Virus record (IMG/VR): IMGVR_UViG_3300027736_000002
Location: 1-54,919 of that record
DNA from: a virus
Strand: one strand, 5' to 3'
Length of the DNA: 54,919 bases
Positions 16,174 to 26,378 of this stretch are shown here, one piece after another. Both the position numbers and the translations under genes were made by a program. The notes below the pieces were generated by a model. It was not told the origin of the DNA and made no database searches. It saw nothing but the letters and a program-made list of their open reading frames with translations. How positions within the stretch are numbered: the first letter of the stretch is position 1; every line of letters starts with the position of its first letter.

Positions 16174-19100
16174 ATGGGCTATGAACTTGATCGATTGATG
16201 CAGCAGTTTGGTGTTAGTACACCAACTTTGTCCTATTCCGGCATGCCAATGCCAATGAAGCCAGATGATTTATCAACTACTGCTAGCTCAACAGATAAAG
16301 CAAACTATGATGCTTTGCTGGCCAAGTACAACGCGGATATGCCTTTGTACAACTCGAATCAAGCCATGTACAAGACTTATTCGGACGAATACAAGAATCG
16401 TTTGGCTAATACGTCTTTGTACGATGCACCGCAGTATCAAAGAGGAGCCGTGAGCAGCCCAGGCACTGGTAGCGCAATAGACCAATACTCACAGATGTAC
16501 TACGACGTGCTGGGGCGAGCGCCTGACGCCTCTGGCCTTGCGTATTGGAAAGGTAAATTTGGGGATATGATTTCTCCAGAAGAGTACGCTGAGTTTAGGC
16601 AGTCTGCGGCAGGGGAAATAGGTAGCCGACCCGTAAATAATTTGTCTACCACAGGTTTACCAGTTCTACCAGTTCTAACGGGTTTAACGGGTTTAACGGG
16701 TTTAACAGGCACAACAATCACCCCAGCCGCAGCATTGGCTCTAATGTATAGGAGCAGCACTACTGGCGCTTCAACAGCAGATTTTGACAAGTACGGCGGT
16801 TATGATAAAGTCAAAGCCGCTGCTACAGCTGCTGGGTTTAGTGCAACGCCTGAGTGGCAGCGAAGTTATGAGCAAAGTCTTAGAAATACCGGTACGGGTA
16901 CAGGTACTACAGGCTTAACAGGTACAGGTACAACGGTAGGTACAGGTACTACAGCGGGTACTACAACAGGCTTAACGGGCACAACAGGCTTAACGGGCAC
17001 AACAGGCACAACAGGTACAACAGGTACAACAGGCACGACAGGTACGACAGGTACGACAGGTACGACAGGTGCAACAGGTACGACTGGAGTTACAGGCACG
17101 ACAGGCACTACAGCTGCAACAGGTACAACTGGTGTAACGGGCACGACAGGTACAACAGGCACTACAGCTGCAACAGGCACAACAATCACCCCAGCCGCAG
17201 CATTGGCTCTAATGTACAAGTCTAGCATGAGCGGAGCACCAACAGCTGAATTTGATAAACTTGGCGGTTATGCCGCAGTTAAAGCCGCTGCTACAGCCGC
17301 TGGGTTTGACGCAACTCCTGAGTGGCAGCAGAGTTATAGGAAAAGTGTTGGTATGGCCAAAGGCGGCTACATAGACCACTACGCTGATGGCGGCGCAGTT
17401 CGCCACTATGAATATGGTGGGCCTGTTGCTGGAAGTATGGCCGAAGCCCAAGAATTGATCAAAGCCTTGGAGAGTGGAAAATTAACGGGGTACGAGCGCG
17501 AAGAGGCTTTGAGTAAAATTGCAGAAATTTATAGAAAGATTGATCAGGAGCCTTCTCAACTGGCTACTATGTCTAGGTACAGTGCGCCGCAGTTCCAAAG
17601 AAATCAAAGGGCTGTCCTGAATGAGCCTATCTACAACATGCCTACTGCGTTGCGCGTCCTTCAGACTGAGGCAAAGACTAATCCGTATGTTTTGCCATAC
17701 GATGGCGGTAATGGTAGCCCCGCTGGTGGAGAGCGTAGTTCAAACCCTGCCTGGGATGCTATGACATCTGAAGAAAAAGCTGCGTTTTATAGTGCCAATC
17801 CAATGTTTAGTGCAATTACACGAGCTGGTCAAAACATATTGGGGATTACAAGTCTTGGAACTCTGCAAAATTTATTAGTGCCCGATTTTGTGCGAGAACA
17901 ACAAGCTATTGCAAAAGGTACGGAGGCTTATTCAGGCTTTAGAAATTTTGGCAAAGAAAGCACCATTCCAAGTGGCGGTATGATTAGTCCTGGTTTATTT
18001 GATCCATATGCTGGGGATTCTGCTAAAGATACACGCGGTGTAGATTTTAGCGGTGCTGACAGTTCTGGTACGGGGTTTGCAGGCGATGTGTTTGCTTCCG
18101 GCGGCTACGTAGACAGCTACGCCCAAGGTGGTGCGGTTCGCCACTATCAAGCTGGCGGGGATGTTGTGTCAAGTATGGCTGAAGCGGAAAGATTAATTAA
18201 AGCATTGGAAGGTGGGAAATTAACAGAAAATGAGCGTGAAGACGCTATGAGCAGGGTTGCGGAAATTTATAGGAGGCTTGATGAGGAGCCTGCTCAAGCG
18301 GCCCAAATACCATCCGGCATGGATTTAATTGAGCCGATACCGGAGTCAGTACCAGTTATGGTCCAAGAGCCTGAGCAACGCACAATGTCGCAGATCCAGC
18401 AAGGTCTCACCGATACCTCACCGTTAACAGCGTTAAAAGAAGCAGTTGCCAAACCATACCCGGTTGCAGAAGCCGCGCCATTGGTCAGGCCAGTAGACCC
18501 CAGGCTCTTTGGCGAAAGCGATGAAGTTGCTACAGGCCCAGGCTACAGCCCTATGGATCCTAGGCTCTACGGTGAGAGCGATGAGGTTGCAACGGGTCGG
18601 GGTTACAGCCCTATGGACCCTAGACTTTTCGGCGAGACTAATGAGGTTGCTACAGGCCCAGGTTATTCAATGCCTGTGGCAAAACCAAAATTATTAGACT
18701 TAGCAGCAAAATACGCAAAAACCGGGTTTACCCCTACCTTTGCCGCAGGTAGCATTGACCCTGGCCCAGATCGGATGGCTTTGATATCGCAGGCCGCAAT
18801 TGCAAACAAGATTGCTAACCCTATCGTTAACATCCAACCTGAGTATGCTGACGACTCGGCAAGTCGGTTGTCTATGGATAAGCCTCAAGACACCACAATC
18901 CCAATGAGCCCAACTATGGCCATGCTGCAGAAGATGCTGTTGGCCAACCAATCCCAAACTTCACCCTATGCAGATGAGTTGCGTGTTGCTAGGGCTGCGG
19001 CCACAGCACAAACAAAAGCCTTCAACGACATGTTGGAGAAAGCAATCAAAGGCCAAGACGACAACAAGCCGTCAAACGCTGAGATGTACTTCCGTCTTGC

Positions 19101-20067
19101 CGCCGCATTTGGCGCGCCTACAAAAACAGGTAACTTTTTTGAAAGCCTGGCTGAAGTTAACAAGAGCATGGCTGAACAAGCTAAAGAGACTAGGTTGGCA
19201 GGCAAAGCTGGTCAAGCGCTCAGATTGCAACTTGGCTTAGAAGGTGCCAAGGCAGGTATGACTGCAGCTAAAGAAGATGTCACGGCATTGCGAGCATTGA
19301 CCAGCGAAGAGATGAAAGAGAAAGCGGCTTATGGGCGTGATTTGATTAAAGAATATTTCAAATCTGGCGAAGCCCAATCAACCTTTGGCAAGCAAGCACA
19401 AGACGAAGGTTTGATTCCAGGTACCGCTAAGTATCAAGCTCGCGTAGCAGCACTTTCTGATGAAGCACTTAGGAGGATGACAGCCGGGGCCGATGCTGCT
19501 GGTGCCGCTGCTCAAGCAAGTCTAGCAGCTATTGGCAGGGCTGATGAGGCCGCAAGACTTGCTAGGGAAAAGTTTGAAGCGGATCAAGCTACGAGAAAAG
19601 CAAACGCTGCCAAACTATCTGGGCCTGAGTTAAAACTTAAAACTGAGACTGAAGATTTAATTGCAAGTACAGACCAGGCACTTAAAAACTTGCAGCGGGC
19701 CTATGCGCTTAATCCAAATACTTTTGACACATCGGTTATTGACACCGTGCAACGCAAAGCTATGGAGGCTGCAGGCAGTAAAGATCCAAAAGTTCTGGCA
19801 ACTCGTGAACTTGAAAACTTGCTGAGCAAAGGTGCCATTGAGAAATTAAGGGCATCATTTGGCGGCAATCCAACTGAAGGGGAGCGCAAAATTTTGTTGA
19901 GTCTTGAGGGATTGGAAAGCAAGAGCATAGAAGAAAGAAAGCTGATTATGCTTAATGCTTACGATGCTTTAAAGATTACACAAGCTAGGCATAAAGCTAG
20001 ACTCAAAGACATTGTTTCAGGGGTCTATCGTACTACCACTCCATCAATTGCAGGGGAGACTGAATAA
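16174..20067 (+). CDS. Giant virion protein with DUF4214-like segment and collagen-like Gly-Thr-Thr repeats, 1297 aa
   Basis: Residues about 108-152 ([17 protein letters not shown]) fit a DUF4214-like domain. A roughly 55-residue domain starting [11 protein letters not shown] occurs twice, near residues 184 and 336. Between the copies residues 239-335 are a collagen-like Gly-Thr-Thr run. A second duplicated block ([18 protein letters not shown], then [17 protein letters not shown]) occurs near residues 394 and 642. A 20-residue [14 protein letters not shown] unit occurs three times near residues 775-830. The C-terminal 350 residues are charged coiled coil. It is likely an internal or tail-associated virion protein built by repeated internal duplication. 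Confidence 0.65.
16890..17190 (+). repeat. Collagen-like (Gly-Thr-Thr)n codon repeats
   Basis: The DNA is a run of imperfect 9-base units around GGTACAACA with synonymous drift, encoding Gly at nearly every third residue (G-T-T, with Leu, Val or Ala substitutions). Collagen-like G-X-Y repeats form trimeric rods in phage fibre proteins and bacterial exosporium proteins. Synonymous variation shows selection for the protein pattern. Length variation between strains is expected through slippage. Confidence 0.75.
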
Positions 20068-22141: not shown

Positions 22142-22358
22142 ATGGATGCGGACAATCGTCAGGGATAAATGCTAGGCAATGTACGGCGGTGTACTTGCTT
22201 GTGGTCTTGACCCACCTATCAATGTAGGTGTCAGGCATCAAGGCCAATGACCTGCTCACGGCTGTCGGCGTTAACTTCAGCGCAAGTGCAAGTTCCAGGG
22301 CAGTCATACCATCTGGAGCCTGGGCTAGGGTTTCCCTAATTTTTTCTGAAATTACCAC
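22140..22358 (-). CDS. Small winged-helix-like DNA-binding protein, 72 aa
   Basis: The protein IRETLAQAPDGMTALELALALKLTPTAVSRSL reads as a helix-turn-helix, followed by a wing-like basic strand (DRWVKTTSKYTAVH). It begins with GTG overlapping the stop of the 31-residue gene upstream. It is the last gene of the minus arm and ends in the terminator loop region. It may be a small transcription regulator; its target is unknown. Confidence 0.65.
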   Translation of the reverse strand: MVISEKIRETLAQAPDGMTALELALALKLTPTAVSRSLALMPDTYIDRWVKTTSKYTAVHCLAFIPDDCPHP

Positions 22359-22447
22359 GGGGCATCCTCAAAGTTTTCAGGGTTAAACGGGATGGGTTTG
22401 CTTGGCTGCGCCGGAGGCAACTCGGTGGGGAAGGGCCAGTTATCCAT
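22352..22447 (-). CDS. Tiny Pro-rich protein ending in an acidic aromatic tail, 31 aa
   Basis: The ATG at 22447 is preceded by AAGGAACGC, which is also the C-terminal coding sequence of the upstream gene. The 31 residues begin MDNWPFPTEL and end ENFEDAPW. The TAA overlaps the GTG start of the next gene. Overlap at both ends in the same style as its neighbours is the main evidence that it is real. The acidic tail with a terminal aromatic residue faintly resembles SSB C-terminal tips. Function unknown. Confidence 0.55.
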   Translation of the reverse strand: MDNWPFPTELPPAQPSKPIPFNPENFEDAPW

Positions 22448-22685
22448 TGCGTTCCTTCAGCATGGCCTCGATGGCTCGGGCGTTTTTGAGTATTTGATAA
22501 GGATTGACATTTGAGTCTGATGTCCCTATTCGAGGGTCTGCGCTCCAAATTTCGTCGTCCGTCAGCCCTACCCACTCACGCTGTGGTGGGCAAATCCAAC
22601 CCTCACAATTTTCACGTTCGGTAGCCTCACAATGTATGCAAGCACCGTTTGCAAACTCGCAAGGTTTTACTTCTTGTTTGGTCAT
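22440..22685 (-). CDS. WVGLT-motif small Cys-rich protein, 81 aa
   Basis: The start is taken at 22685 because the ATG overlaps the upstream stop and has an AAAAGAG site encoded in the upstream gene's last codons. Cysteines CEFANGACIHC and later ENCEGWIC could bind zinc. REWVGLTDDEI follows at residues about 36-46, and the protein ends MLKERNG. Three neighbours share the WVGLT segment and the LKERN end. Function is unknown; the conserved segment may be a docking motif. Confidence 0.65.
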   Translation of the reverse strand: MTKQEVKPCEFANGACIHCEATERENCEGWICPPQREWVGLTDDEIWSADPRIGTSDSNVNPYQILKNARAIEAMLKERNG

Positions 22686-22924
22686 GTGTTGCGCTCTTTT
22701 AAAATGGACTCCGCACTCATTGCGGCTTGAAATTTGGTTAGGCAAGACTGATTGATTGCTGGAATGTCTTCTTCCGTCAGCCCAACCCAAGGCCGCTGAG
22801 CTTTTGTTTGCCAGTAATGCACATCACACAAGTTACCCTGGTCAATATCATCTTTGTATAAATTGAATTGATAGCTACCGCAGTTCCAAGCGCCGCACTT
22901 ATGTTCACATCTTTTTTCAGCCAT
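22682..22924 (-). CDS. WVGLT-motif small Cys/His-rich protein, 80 aa
   Basis: The N-terminal part has CEHKCGAWNCGSY and a later CDVHYW, a zinc-binding-like arrangement. Then come RPWVGLTEEDI and the end SILKERNT. It overlaps both neighbours by 4-8 bases. It is a paralogue in architecture, though not in its N-terminal half, of the genes at 22440, 22917 and 23306. Function unknown. Confidence 0.65.
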   Translation of the reverse strand: MAEKRCEHKCGAWNCGSYQFNLYKDDIDQGNLCDVHYWQTKAQRPWVGLTEEDIPAINQSCLTKFQAAMSAESILKERNT

Positions 22925-23309
22925 TGTTCTTCTCCTTTAACTTGGCTTCCAAGGCTTGTCCAAACATTACTACGTTATTTCGTACTTCGTTATCAGGCGT
23001 TGATAATTTTCCATGAGTTAGGTCATACCAAAGTTGTGCCCAAGTACCTTTAATCTCGTCCTCTGTCAGCCCTACCCACGGGCGCTGTGATGGGGCGTCT
23101 TTGATCTGCGGGTTCATTATTTTTCCATCGCTTACACGCCTTACTTGCCCTGCATTCCAAGCGCGGTAGAACTCTTCTTCAATGCCGTCTTTGTGTCTCA
23201 TTTTTTCTTGCGGTGTTTTTTCCCGCACCAACAACTCCCCGTTCTCTAGCTTGTCGATCAACCTGAAGCCGTGCTTATCAAGCGCGAATTGTATTTCTGC
23301 TATGTTCAT
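22917..23309 (-). CDS. WVGLT-motif protein, 130 aa
   Basis: The start is placed at the ATG at 23309, which overlaps the upstream stop and follows AAGGAGCGCAACAC. The N-terminal half (MNIAEIQFALDKHGFRLI) is predicted helical and strand mixed. RPWVGLTEDEI lies near residue 77, and the end is LKEKNNG. The last codons give the AAGGAG site of the following gene. Function unknown. Confidence 0.65.
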   Translation of the reverse strand: MNIAEIQFALDKHGFRLIDKLENGELLVREKTPQEKMRHKDGIEEEFYRAWNAGQVRRVSDGKIMNPQIKDAPSQRPWVGLTEDEIKGTWAQLWYDLTHGKLSTPDNEVRNNVVMFGQALEAKLKEKNNG

Positions 23310-23824
23310 GTGTTGCGCTCCTTCAGTCTTGCCTGCGCCCAAGCTACGCCTTGGTCAAACGCATCGGGCATATCTTCAATCTTGGCCCAATCCTCATCCG
23401 TCAGACCTACCCATGTGCGCTGTGCTGCTTTCCACCCCGCGACAAAGGCAATGGCGTCCAGCCCGTACTCAGCCAAGATGTTCTTGATTAACGGCCATTC
23501 GGAAGGTGCTGCGGGTGGGGCGGTGTAGAGTTTTGTGCCAACAGTCAAGTGCTGGCTAAACTCGCATTTAAATCCGTCATTGTTAACCTCTACCACTTTG
23601 CCAACAGGCTCCTGCTTTGGCAGGGGTGGGGGTTGTTGAACATCGTCAATCTCTCCGCAGTGGTAACACTGCCATGTCCAGCAACCTCTGGCATCGTGAC
23701 AAAAGCGACACGCCACCGGCTCGGCTTGCGGCACTGGTAATGCCTTCGTATCCCCGCAGTCTTTGTAATGACACGCGTCTCCGTCTTGGCAGGGACATCG
23801 TGGGTCTTTTCCTATGCATGTCAT
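23306..23824 (-). CDS. WVGLT-motif protein with zinc-finger-like Cys cluster, 172 aa
   Basis: The chosen start at 23824 overlaps the upstream stop by 4 bases. An N-terminal Cys-rich part (CIGKDPRCPCQDGDACHYKDC) and a second cluster (CRFCHDARGCWTWQCYHC) look like metal-binding knuckles. A segment ending VGTKLYTAPP is a module seen in small accessory proteins of many phages. RTWVGLTDEDW and an ARLKERNT end follow. The mosaic of modules suggests recombination among small accessory genes. Function unknown. Confidence 0.65.
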   Translation of the reverse strand: MTCIGKDPRCPCQDGDACHYKDCGDTKALPVPQAEPVACRFCHDARGCWTWQCYHCGEIDDVQQPPPLPKQEPVGKVVEVNNDGFKCEFSQHLTVGTKLYTAPPAAPSEWPLIKNILAEYGLDAIAFVAGWKAAQRTWVGLTDEDWAKIEDMPDAFDQGVAWAQARLKERNT

Positions 23825-24150
23825 GTCTTCTCCTTGATGCCGTGGGCGGCTTTGTGCTGCTCGATAACTGCAAATAAATTGTCCATGTTTTGCAAATCTG
23901 CGTCTCCCCAACCCAAGCTGCCGCAAAAACTATCCAACGAGTTTGCAGCAGCCTCCAAAACCTCCAGCGGCACAAGCACATCATCCGTCAGCGGCTTGCG
24001 CTGCACTGGCTGTGCCAAGGCTGCTTGGATGGAGGTGATGGCGTCAAGGATGTATTCAGGCGCTCCGTCTTCATCATGCTCACGATAAATGTCGCGCTCA
24101 GTTTCCAACGCCTTTAGCGCCTGTTGCGCGGCTTGTCGTAGTGTGGTCAT
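23821..24150 (-). CDS. Small helical protein, 109 aa
   Basis: The ATG at 24150 overlaps the upstream TGA as TGATG and has GGAGG upstream. The N-terminal helix LRQAAQQALKALETERDIY and the TSIQAALAQP segment form a pattern that is widespread in small phage proteins of Proteobacteria. The C-terminus ends IKEKT, whose codons provide AAGGAG for the next gene. Function unknown. Confidence 0.65.
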   Translation of the reverse strand: MTTLRQAAQQALKALETERDIYREHDEDGAPEYILDAITSIQAALAQPVQRKPLTDDVLVPLEVLEAAANSLDSFCGSLGWGDADLQNMDNLFAVIEQHKAAHGIKEKT

Positions 24151-24314
24151 CACGCATCCCTCCACTGCCAGCCAAGCAACTGCTCGGTGTTTTTGATTTG
24201 CTCCTCCGACGGCTTGTGATACATTGCAAAGGATGTGTTTAGCAATCCCTCTTTGTACAGCACCCAAAAGCCCACAGGTGAGGGCGGTAAAATAAATTTG
24301 CCGTCATCAATCAT
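24150..24314 (-). CDS. Small hypothetical protein, 54 aa
   Basis: The ATG at 24314 has AGGAG 5 bases upstream. It encodes MIDDGKFILPPSPVGFW at the start and a short helical tail, and it ends in TGA overlapping the next ATG. The strong ribosome site and the TGATG coupling make it a likely real gene despite its size. Function unknown. Confidence 0.6.
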   Translation of the reverse strand: MIDDGKFILPPSPVGFWVLYKEGLLNTSFAMYHKPSEEQIKNTEQLLGWQWRDA

Positions 24315-24323
24315 GTCAATCTC

Positions 24324-24647
24324 CTATAATCCAAAATCGGCCAGAAACTCGGCCAAGAATAAATAAAACAGTGGGTAGTCAGGCGGCGACTGTGAGTCAA
24401 AGTACACGGTAAATTCAGTAGCTGCAACCTCTGCAATCTTATTTTCCCAGCGTGTAGAGTAAACGTATTGTTCAGCCATCTCCCGCAGCGCCGTGCTGAC
24501 TGGGCCATAAGCCAAGTGAGCGTCCTCCGGGTGGATGCGGTAGTTAAATTTTGGCACCAAGTGAATACCAGAAACACCGTACCATGTTCCTTCCCACTCT
24601 GATTGCATCCTCGCGCCCCTTGCGGCAGCGTGTAACAGGCGGCTCAT
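24324..24647 (-). CDS. Hypothetical protein, 107 aa
   Basis: A soluble mixed alpha/beta protein with an N-terminal basic helix (RLLHAAARGARMQ), a Trp-rich middle and a hydrophobic C-terminus (YPLFYLFLAEFLADFGL). Its start overlaps the upstream stop by 4 bases, with AAGGAG in the upstream codons. Nine bases separate it from the next gene. I do not recognise the family. Confidence 0.6.
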   Translation of the reverse strand: MSRLLHAAARGARMQSEWEGTWYGVSGIHLVPKFNYRIHPEDAHLAYGPVSTALREMAEQYVYSTRWENKIAEVAATEFTVYFDSQSPPDYPLFYLFLAEFLADFGL

Positions 24648-24880
24648 GTTTGCTCTCCTTCTGCGTTAGCAATGGCTTCACGGGCTACATCGGTCAAACC
24701 GTAACGTGCGCCCATGTCTTTCAACGCCTTCAGCAGTTCCTGATTTACTGCATGGAGTCGGCGCAGTTCGGCGGCGGCGACAAGGTTGGCAAAGGCGAAA
24801 AGGTCATCATCGCCCGAATTATTGCCGTCGATAATTAACCCCGCCTCCCGCGCCATGCGATTGATGTCATCTTTGATCAT
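24644..24880 (-). CDS. Small helical protein, DDI-MAR family member 1, 78 aa
   Basis: It opens MIKDDINRMAREAG, like the next gene upstream (MTQDDIIKMARVAG), so the two look like paralogues. A helix-rich middle with Leu/Ala heptads (AAAELRRLHAVNQELLKAL) follows. It overlaps both neighbours by 4 bases. Such openings are common in small accessory proteins of phages infecting Burkholderiales. Function unknown. Confidence 0.6.
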   Translation of the reverse strand: MIKDDINRMAREAGLIIDGNNSGDDDLFAFANLVAAAELRRLHAVNQELLKALKDMGARYGLTDVAREAIANAEGEQT

Positions 24881-25089
24881 GTGCGCTCCTTAAGTTCGGT
24901 AATATAATCCTTAAGTTCGGTAATAAAATCCTTAAGTTCTTGAATTTTTTCCACGTAAGCCTTGCACTTGGCTAATTCGACAAGCTCGGCAAAGCGTTGG
25001 AGATATTTGTATTCACCGAACTCAAACCGATGGCCGTCATCACGGACTCCTGCAACCCGCGCCATCTTGATGATGTCGTCTTGCGTCAT
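24877..25089 (-). CDS. Small coiled-coil protein, DDI-MAR family member 2, 70 aa
   Basis: The N-terminus is a paralogue of the gene at 24644. The C-terminus has an exact heptad repeat, ITELKDF/ITELKDY, encoded by 21-base tandem repeats at about 24895-24940, ending ELKERT. The last codons carry AAGGAG for the following gene. The heptads suggest a dimeric coiled coil that can grow or shrink by slippage. Confidence 0.6.
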   Translation of the reverse strand: MTQDDIIKMARVAGVRDDGHRFEFGEYKYLQRFAELVELAKCKAYVEKIQELKDFITELKDYITELKERT

Positions 25090-25307
25090 GGTGTTCCCCT
25101 TGCTTTCAGCATGGCGTCTGCCATTATGTAAGCGTTTTTTGCGTAATATTGATCAGTAGCATCCCTGCCGTCTGGCGTACCTCTCGGGCTTGCAATCAAT
25201 GCTTGCATCGCCTTGGCAGCGAAGTAGTCCTTCAAGGTCATGCCATATGCGTGAGTAATAGGGTCATGGGTGGGGGGAAACGCTGGGCCTCCTGTGTTTG
25301 TTGTCAT
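25086..25307 (-). CDS. Conserved small phage protein (GGPAFP type), 73 aa
   Basis: The order NTGGPAFP, then GMTLKDYFAAKAMQALI, then a C-terminal YIMADAMLKAR helix, is a very widespread small protein of unknown function in prophages and phages of Proteobacteria. It overlaps the upstream and downstream genes by 4 bases. The C-terminal codons encode the AAGGGG site of the next gene. Confident as a gene, unknown in role. Confidence 0.75.
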   Translation of the reverse strand: MTTNTGGPAFPPTHDPITHAYGMTLKDYFAAKAMQALIASPRGTPDGRDATDQYYAKNAYIMADAMLKARGTP

Positions 25308-25441
25308 TTCAATATCTCCCGTTCCAGCACTGCAACCGCAGCGTCAATCTGTTCAAACAAATAGTGCGGTAATGATGTAGTCGTTGCGCCTTCGATTGCC
25401 GACAACAGCTTGAGTAGTTGAAGTAATTCTGGCTTGGTCAT
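25304..25441 (-). CDS. Small helical protein, 45 aa
   Basis: The ATG at 25441 overlaps the stop of the membrane gene upstream, and the TGA overlaps the next ATG. It encodes two helices (MTKPELLQLLKLLSAIEG and FEQIDAAVAVLEREIL). Its place in an unbroken overlap chain is the main evidence. Function unknown. Confidence 0.55.
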   Translation of the reverse strand: MTKPELLQLLKLLSAIEGATTTSLPHYLFEQIDAAVAVLEREILK

Positions 25442-25563
25442 AGCATCCCCCAGACAAACCCAGCTATGCCAGCCAAAAATGTAATTGTCATCAGCACTAA
25501 AAAGATTATTGTTACCCAGTGCATGATTTCATCGATCATGTTGTAGTCATCGTCATCGTTCAT
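25438..25563 (-). CDS. Single-pass membrane miniprotein, 41 aa
   Basis: The start at 25563 overlaps the upstream stop by 4 bases. An acidic N-terminus (MNDDDDYNMIDEIM) is followed by one long hydrophobic helix (residues 18-40) rich in Leu, Ile, Phe and Val. The acidic end is probably cytoplasmic. It could act on the host membrane or on superinfection; nothing specific is visible. Confidence 0.6.
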   Translation of the reverse strand: MNDDDDYNMIDEIMHWVTIIFLVLMTITFLAGIAGFVWGML

Positions 25564-25772
25564 AGTTGCACCTTTCTTGTCTTGAGTCCGCGATGTGTGT
25601 AGCACTGCACCGACCCATCCTCTAGCATCTTCCAGGCGGCATTCTCGCCGCACATTTTTTGAATTAGCTCCTCTGCCGTATCTATCCGTGCCTCGTGTTC
25701 GCTGGGGCCGTCTAGCAAGTATGCTGCCGACAAGACCGAGGCTACTAAGGCTGCTGCAATCCAGTTTAGCAT
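25560..25772 (-). CDS. Small protein with N-terminal signal-like helix, 70 aa
   Basis: MLNWIAAALVASVLSAAYLL is a hydrophobic segment like a signal anchor or signal peptide. It is followed by a charged helical domain with two Cys (MCGENAAW and VQCYTH) that could form a disulphide if exported. It is coupled to its neighbours by overlaps. It may be a periplasmic or membrane-anchored accessory protein. Confidence 0.6.
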   Translation of the reverse strand: MLNWIAAALVASVLSAAYLLDGPSEHEARIDTAEELIQKMCGENAAWKMLEDGSVQCYTHRGLKTRKVQL

Positions 25773-25918
25773 TCTCCTTCTCCTTTACACTTATGGCAAA
25801 TAGTGCCATCAAACTGACCTTCTCCTGAACCGGAGCAGGCTGGACAGATGCCTTCTTCTAAAACTTCTGGGCCATCGTCAGCCATATAGGCTGCTAGATC
25901 TTCTTCGTAGTCAATCAT
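25766..25918 (-). CDS. DnaJ-type CxxCxGxG zinc miniprotein, 50 aa
   Basis: An acidic N-terminal half (MIDYEEDLAAYMADDGPEVL) is followed by CPACSGSGEGQFDG and CHKCKGEGEC, the paired CxxCxGxG knuckles of DnaJ-like zinc domains. Four cysteines suit one zinc site. It overlaps the wHTH gene upstream by 8 bases and the next gene by 7 bases. Small zinc proteins of this type are common in phage accessory operons; the role is unknown. Confidence 0.65.
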   Translation of the reverse strand: MIDYEEDLAAYMADDGPEVLEEGICPACSGSGEGQFDGTICHKCKGEGEC

Positions 25919-26378
25919 TATTAGCTCCAAAGAACTTCTGTAGCTGCTTGTACAGGGTGTGCGCTTCGGAAAGGGTCATCTTTTCGATGTCGATGGTGGC
26001 TGGTTGTGGAGTTGACTGCTCCAACAACTTAGCATTAACAAGATAAGGGTTGGCGGCACGCTCAACCTTTGTGGTGGGCAAAGCCCGCAATAGTTCATAC
26101 TCTTGCCCGACAGCGGCCCATTGCGCAACGAGGCGTTTAATGCTAGTGCCGCGCGGTCCTTTTATCCGGGTCAGTTCATGCCTGGCAAGGGCAACCATGC
26201 CACGTGAGTACATTGAGTTTATTGCTGAGCTGACATTGCCACGCGGCACATGCAGCATACTTGCAAGGCAGGCTGCGGAGCGCGGCAACTTGGAGTCGTG
26301 CAACAGCTGCCAAATACGCTGCGTGAGGGGCGGAAGTTTTACACCGGCTTGAGCTAGCGCAGACGAGATTTGATTCAT
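25911..26378 (-). CDS. Winged helix-turn-helix protein heading the accessory operon, 155 aa
   Basis: Residues about 16-70 (LTQRIWQLLHDSKLPRSAA, then LASMLHVPRGNVSSAINSM and SRGMVALAR) read as a winged helix: a helix, a recognition helix and a wing. The C-terminal half is a basic then helical region (EKMTLSEAHTLYKQLQKFF). The ATG has AAGGAAAA 5 bases upstream. It is the first gene after promoter module 1 and therefore heads the chain of small accessory genes. It may regulate that operon or a host gene. Confidence 0.7.
   Translation of the reverse strand: MNQISSALAQAGVKLPPLTQRIWQLLHDSKLPRSAACLASMLHVPRGNVSSAINSMYSRGMVALARHELTRIKGPRGTSIKRLVAQWAAVGQEYELLRALPTTKVERAANPYLVNAKLLEQSTPQPATIDIEKMTLSEAHTLYKQLQKFFGANND

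Follow-up and report, generated by a model that had tools for sequence, protein, structure and literature searches.

The C-terminal tails of the small proteins encoded by a chain of overlapping genes in a freshwater phage are very probably dual-purpose. Their codons supply the Shine-Dalgarno (SD) site and spacer for the next gene, four of the proteins are in addition alike through a homologous C-terminal module, and genes appear to be exchanged at the junctions, a tail then serving whichever gene follows it. The window is the whole of IMG/VR virus record IMGVR_UViG_3300027736_000002 (54,919 bases), in which the chain runs on the minus strand from ∼26.4 kb to 22.1 kb with stops overlapping starts. 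The tails LKERNT, LKERNG, LKEKNNG, LKERT, IKEKT and AEGEQT encode AAGGAG-like SD sites 4-8 nucleotides (nt) ahead of the next start. An earlier note on this DNA had reported recurring minus-strand tails, all of which were found in place, and had put AAGGAG about 8 bases before the next ATG. The distance is 8 nt for the start at 23309, 7 nt for those at 22924 and 24647 and 5 nt for those at 23824 and 24880, and weaker versions of the site precede the starts at 22685 (AAAGAG) and 22447 (AAGGAA). The codon string then proposed, AAG GAG CGC AAC ACA TGA, is exact for the gene at 23306-23824, but 22682-22924 reads AAA GAG and 22440-22685 reads AAG GAA followed by a GGA TAA end. The unrelated AEGEQT tail reaches AAGGAG in another frame (GCA GAA GGA GAG CAA ACA TGA), just as had been claimed. 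Over 22358-26378, a match to the SD of 5 nt or more precedes 10 of the 16 minus-strand starts versus 10 of 275 other minus-strand ATGs (p=1.2e-9). The next start overlaps or abuts the stop in junctions of the ATGA, ATGG and TGATG types, and the complement to the anti-SD lies 4-10 nt ahead of the start within the upstream codons, the arrangement by which short-overlap coupling is recognised. The features of the chain, all on the minus strand, are listed below.

22352-22447, minus strand: 31-residue open reading frame (MDNWPFPTELPPAQPSKPIPFNPENFEDAPW); its end, GAGGA, precedes a GTG start at 22358 that lies inside the frame.
22440-22685, minus strand: 81-residue protein with WVGLT module and tail LKERNG (AAG GAA CGC AAT GGA TAA); 8-nt overlap with the next start.
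22440-22574, minus strand: WVGLT C-terminal module, copy 1 in window order.
22452-22457, minus strand: SD-like AAGGAA in the LKERNG codons, 4 nt before the ATG at 22447.
22682-22924, minus strand: 80-residue protein with WVGLT module and tail LKERNT (AAA GAG CGC AAC ACA TGA); ATGA overlap.
22682-22789, minus strand: WVGLT C-terminal module, copy 2.
22694-22699, minus strand: weak SD AAAGAG in the LKERNT codons, 8 nt before the ATG at 22685.
22917-23309, minus strand: 130-residue protein with WVGLT module and tail LKEKNNG, a tail absent from the earlier list; 8-nt overlap with the next gene.
22917-23078, minus strand: WVGLT C-terminal module, copy 3.
22932-22937, minus strand: SD AAGGAG in the LKEKNNG codons, 7 nt before the ATG at 22924.
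23306-23824, minus strand: 172-residue protein with WVGLT module and tail LKERNT; ATGA overlap.
23306-23413, minus strand: WVGLT C-terminal module, copy 4.
23318-23323, minus strand: SD AAGGAG in the LKERNT codons, 8 nt before the ATG at 23309.
23821-24150, minus strand: 109-residue protein with tail IKEKT and a probable sister module (RKPLTDD...IEQHKAAHGIKEKT); ATGA overlap.
23830-23835, minus strand: SD AAGGAG in the IKEKT codons, 5 nt before the ATG at 23824.
24150-24314, minus strand: 54-residue protein; TGATG junction with the next gene.
24324-24647, minus strand: 107-residue protein; the next SD (AGGAG) lies over its TAG stop, not within its codons.
24644-24880, minus strand: 78-residue protein with tail AEGEQT and the SD in another frame.
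24655-24660, minus strand: SD AAGGAG in the AEGEQT codons, 7 nt before the ATG at 24647.
24877-25089, minus strand: 70-residue protein ending ELKDFITELKDYITELKERT (tail LKERT), with 21-nt repeat units; ATGA overlap.
24886-24891, minus strand: SD AAGGAG (TAAGGAG) in the LKERT codons, 5 nt before the ATG at 24880.
25086-25307, minus strand: 73-residue protein of the ADAMLKAR family (phrog_2201), ending MLKARGTP.
25096-25101, minus strand: SD-like AAGGGG in the KARG codons, 6 nt before the ATG at 25089.

The four window proteins ending LKERNT, LKERNG or LKEKNNG each carry QR-x-WVGLT(D/E)(D/E)(D/E) followed by a final helix ending LKE(R/K)N. The consensus of this C-terminal module of two helices is WVGLT(D/E)(D/E)...(A)IEAKLKEKN, and its pattern, W-V-G-L-T near the start, a variable interior and an [IV]EAKLKxKN end, holds in the four window proteins and in a 62-member alignment. 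Further module genes were collected by scanning IMG/VR with a DNA pattern for WVGLTDEE that is independent of the tail, yielding at least 312 unique ends with enough downstream sequence; this and the counts of module genes given below are among the matches listed. An overlapping ATG, GTG or TTG was present at 290 of the 312 ends.

At 265 module ends the Lys codon in the SD position was AAG in 92% and the Glu codon was GAG in 81%, whereas control codons in the same genes were AAG in 31% (Lys two codons earlier) and GAG in 13% (Glu five codons earlier). Discordant pairs between the SD and upstream codons stood at 115:5 for Lys and 140:10 for Glu. With the peptide fixed as LKEKNT, AAGGAG was present in 131 of 144 ATGA-coupled ends and 5 of 6 TAATG-coupled ends (TAATG junctions being classed as coupled by inspection), and in only 2 of 10 ends lacking an ATG at SD distance (p=1e-6 versus 131/144; 2 of 8 and p=4e-5 without two near relatives). 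One of the two uncoupled exceptions, in contig L564, has a TTG start right behind the stop. Since the same peptide is written with AAGGAG when coupled and mostly without it when uncoupled, the choice of tail codons is tied to the next gene, and to judge from these sequences it is clearly coupling that governs it. The SD is also encoded out of frame. The LRSKN tail of 16 coupled ends is mostly written AGG AGC or AGG AGT, with the rare Arg codon AGG, which places the SD one base from the frame, and an ALEQ...QEVK end supplies AGGAGG from another frame. Proteins that extend past the motif (LKQKNG(Y/F)AEEKNT, LKHKNTRGQE, LKQKNGYAEEKNT and LKAKNERKEKNA) have no SD at the motif and usually regain one near the new end, ahead of the relocated ATG.

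These results bear on the proposal that LKEKN(T) is purely a conserved helix end or interaction tag whose resemblance to an SD is incidental. Leu, Lys, Lys and Asn do recur where no SD is present (LKQKN, LKHKN, LKAKN), and AlphaFold2 predicts for the 80-residue window protein a short helix at residues 51-57 and a terminal helix at 64-79 (predicted local distance difference test, pLDDT, 84-96 over the block), the LKERN stretch forming the end of this confident helix with pLDDT above 90 throughout. However, synonymous codons follow coupling, which rejects protein function as the sole cause; the SD-core residue varies freely when no SD is needed, with Q, H, A, D or S standing there in 7 of the 15 module ends that have no start close by; and LRSKN retains the SD, not the KE residues. 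We regard this proposal as very improbable. The same applies to a general C-terminal bias toward charged residues, aiding expression or termination, as the main source of Lys/Glu tails. Lys-rich ends are common and C-terminal biases are reported for 1,582 bacterial genomes (PMC7246954), but such a bias gives no account of the synonymous codons, of SDs placed in another frame or of the contrast that coupled and uncoupled ends show. The codon data reject it as the main cause, and it may act alongside the SD.

The opposite extreme, the view of the earlier note, is that the tails converged purely from the need for an SD and an overlapping ATG, and not from protein function. For the tail DNA that view stands on codon choice, frame switches, relocation of the SD and swapped tails, and it fits the window ends LKERT, AEGEQT and MLKARGTP with no module to complicate them, as well as the non-module families with conserved bodies and interchangeable SD-encoding ends. 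It fails as the sole cause for the four LKER/LKEKN proteins, which have a whole module and its ordered helix end in common. The note had expected homologues not followed by an overlapping gene to lack the tail; the peptide is kept in them and it is the AAGGAG codons that have mostly decayed. Where a module end has no start close by, L-(K/R)-x-K-N was nearly always kept, in tails such as LKEKNT, LKAKNT, LKDKN and LREKN, where the search motif required the tail Asn and no claim is therefore made for the invariance of that residue. Because the tail peptide persists without coupling and the module is shared, homology also explains the likeness of the tails. The terminal Thr codon ACA was found in 105 of 140 module -4 overlaps versus 125 of 990 other -4 overlaps, an excess that coupling does not demand, since every NNA codon would do; it would be accounted for by inheritance or by constraint on the protein. 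Coupling by itself is consequently an unlikely account of the tails as a whole.

Several points weigh against the dual-purpose reading. Poor SDs occur at some coupled ends (AAAGAG at 22694-22699, and LKNKNT and LKQKNT elsewhere), and a strong SD is thus not obligatory. The persistence of the peptide in uncoupled ends could reflect recent loss of coupling and not selection on the protein. The uncoupled comparison sets comprise few ends (10, 4 and about 15), open reading frames in the window and contigs were called mechanically, and the contigs are kin and unevenly sampled, many from similar habitats, so that the p-values overstate independence and are indicative only.

Tails encoding an SD were also found in families without the module. 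Among 1,755 coupled pairs in the fetched contigs with no module-like tail, the SD occurred in all three upstream frames, the commonest being that which reads KE (359, versus 145 and 134). Bodies ending ...VFKDY- carried the tails EFKEPQ, FLKENT, AIKEQE, QFKENT or QLKEKNT; those ending ...CI(D/E)TF- carried SKEEKNT or PPKEKNT, with relatives ending FKDKNT or FKEKP; and those ending ...FxTDP- carried IKLKENT, AKLKETT or LKEKNT. In one related pair ALNQLKEKNT corresponds to ALEQAPRGKHSLPQEVK, the SD being turned into AGGAGG. As read from their sequences, unrelated families keep conserved bodies and exchange tails (FKEPQ, IKENA, LKENT, LKEKNT), each of which encodes an SD. Homologues of the window IKEKT protein end IKEGT (AAGGAGGGGACATGA), and those of the LKERT protein end LQERT (CAGGAG) or differently (AIRARGNT, AIRAREQA, AIRARGETK). 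In the ADAMLKAR family the Arg codon was AGG in 54 of 76 coupled ends, 0 of 4 uncoupled ends and 19 of 189 other Arg codons of the same frames. This family has a conserved body and end followed by one to four variable residues, with AGG making the SD when coupled, which likens it to the other coupled ends; it differs in that its SD is GAGG and not AAGGAG, and in the tests made it showed no relationship to the WVGLT module. Further recurrent SD-bearing ends, ...DPxTGxxVINHKEPQ and ...FKDYEFKEPQ (AAGGAGCCRCAATGA), were observed in contigs L215, L246 and L128.

Exchange at the junctions is the third component of the explanation. The N-terminal parts of the module proteins fell into 113 clusters among 267, and 33 of the 47 multi-member clusters of module interiors placed similar interiors behind different N-termini, which indicates that the module has been shuffled between proteins. 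The exact spacer AAGAACAC was found in 13 of 93 unrelated GGAG-N8-ATGA junctions. Since this is far above the 0.15 expected from base composition, some unrelated proteins appear from sequence to share junction DNA by descent. Breakpoints were located by all-against-all BLAST of the contigs, using stretches of at least 88% identity. Identity ended at junction ATGA relative to other ATGA with a rate ratio of 17.6 when the upstream gene was shared and 14.1 when the downstream gene was shared, and the mosaic joints thus coincide with gene boundaries. The upstream gene was shared up to the ATGA in 129 locus pairs and the following genes differed in 128; L202 and L211, for example, have ...CIETFPPKEKNT in common and then unrelated genes. 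Since sharing stops at the ATGA and the following genes differ, no tail is matched to a single downstream gene.

Published views of such joints invoke either recombination at boundary sequences or illegitimate exchange with selection (PMC3233612, PMC3029335). The block AAGGAGAAGAACACATGA could, in addition to its SD role, act as short homology for cassette swaps by a recombinase, leaving EKNT on unrelated proteins. The recurrent spacer and the 14-18 fold enrichment of breakpoints at junctions agree with this, as do 12 of 64 downstream-shared pairs in which sharing begins at the first base of AAGGAG. Against it, sharing begins at the A of ATG in 25 of the 64, so that many breakpoints have ATGA alone in common and the longer block is often dispensable; moreover, illegitimate exchange with selection for intact genes looks alike, as in mycobacteriophages (PMC3233612, PMC3029335). 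Targeting of recombination to the junction block is possible, and we consider a homology role for it rather doubtful. Also less likely than not is the wider idea of a large freshwater phage pool with standardised junctions, in which a portable module or a few last codons provide a ready ribosome-binding site, spacer and stop/start, the EKNT ends of unrelated proteins being the scars of swaps. If so, recombination at the ATGA joint could bring in a different gene that is translated at once. A likely gene fusion at a junction was observed in L153, where the junction is altered to ACATGG and the upstream frame runs through LKEKNT into WQDGDCKHCVNGCPAC.

Under the dual-purpose reading, the comparisons show that the last four to six codons of the upstream gene hold both the SD and the spacer used by the gene behind it, which starts within the stop overlap, in most cases as ATGA. 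Selection on this role fixes AAG GAG, or elsewhere AGG AGC, GGA GAG or GCG AGG, and the position of the ATG sets the residues after the SD, NT before ATGA and NNG or NHG before ATGG. In the four LKER/LKEKN proteins the same DNA is also the conserved module end, homology adding to the likeness as the comparison of ends shows. Exchange of one gene at a time with breakpoints at ATGA, a pattern shown in the contigs and with a presumed mechanism, would place new genes behind a tail whose built-in ribosome site translates any gene landing there. From the gene anatomy, ribosomes that reach a stop would begin again at the following start (termination-reinitiation), which would keep the small genes co-translated.

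SDs inside the ends of upstream genes are textbook knowledge. Their constraint on the 3' end of the upstream gene was described for E. coli by Eyre-Walker in 1996, as cited in PMC2784483. As in E. coli, the downstream SD constrains the upstream 3' codons and -4 ATGA overlaps dominate; unlike in E. coli, the constraint shows itself in C-terminal peptides that recur throughout a pool of phage genes, and it was parted from homology by matched coupled and uncoupled ends. Coupling via ATGA overlaps has been amply documented (PMC6728339, PMC12548453), and the present chain resembles termination-reinitiation coupling (PMC6728339; reviewed in PMC12548453) in its overlapping stops and starts, SD for the second gene and chains of small genes, being recognised here by its sequence signature. 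The junctions resemble phage boundary sequences (a model in PMC3233612; an 18-residue C-terminal case in PMC3029335) in having joints at gene boundaries and shared C-terminal coding DNA, and differ from them in that the recurring block is the ribosome-binding region and many joints share ATGA at most. The translation side is thus of a known kind, whereas the module, its wide use in hundreds of related phage genes and its role at interchangeable junctions appear undescribed in the sources searched. The analysis tells apart two reasons for which a protein ending may be conserved, descent of a module and a ribosome site that serves the gene behind; it cautions that C-terminal 'motifs' in arrays of small phage genes can be translation signals, and it offers a testable case of gene-by-gene mosaic exchange with translation kept intact.

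Pfam, PHROG and NCBIfam held no model for the module, the hits being weak, sporadic and confined to one to three members; a literature search on the WVGLT module or its junction role found no description; and a Foldseek comparison of the small module model with the PDB gave no fold match. Searching sequenced phages with the DNA of the whole region matched DNA polymerase only, queries with short proteins matched, chance hits aside, no phages other than DSL-LC04 and DSL-LC05 from Dishui Lake, and a plasmid search found no match. Most DNA matches to WVGLTDEE in cellular genomes were rejected as module genes, belonging to WVGLTEDEAK...FPWAASGRAI proteins that we take to be dihydrolipoamide dehydrogenase-like. 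Only two genuine-looking module genes were found in that scan, L306 and L307 (RFYV01000043.1 and VERI01000052.1), both in betaproteobacterial or Burkholderiaceae metagenome-assembled genomes, hinting at such bacteria as hosts.

The IKEKT protein probably carries a sister module (KPLTDEE...FARAIEAAHGIKE). In L431, from 1501, the N-terminal part is 94% identical to that of window 23821-24150 and a WVGLT module ending LRSKNT replaces the IKEKT end, so that two C-terminal modules, probably sisters, have been swapped as domains. WVGLT-type modules, two or more at a time, stand in tandem within a single reading frame in L082, L136 and L019, apparently from fusion or unequal exchange. Ends related to the open reading frame at 22352-22447 were found in L202 and L213 (FNPDNYEDAPR and FNPNNFEDAPL). 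The terminal 21-nt units of the protein at 24877-25089 encode ITELKDF, ITELKDY and ITELKER, and its relative in L436 has fewer units (ELEDFITELQERT), which suggests repeat slippage beside the ribosome site. Elsewhere in the window, positions 16174-20067 on the plus strand encode a 1,297-residue protein with a long GTTGTTG/GLTGTTG low-complexity stretch flanked by repeated segments.

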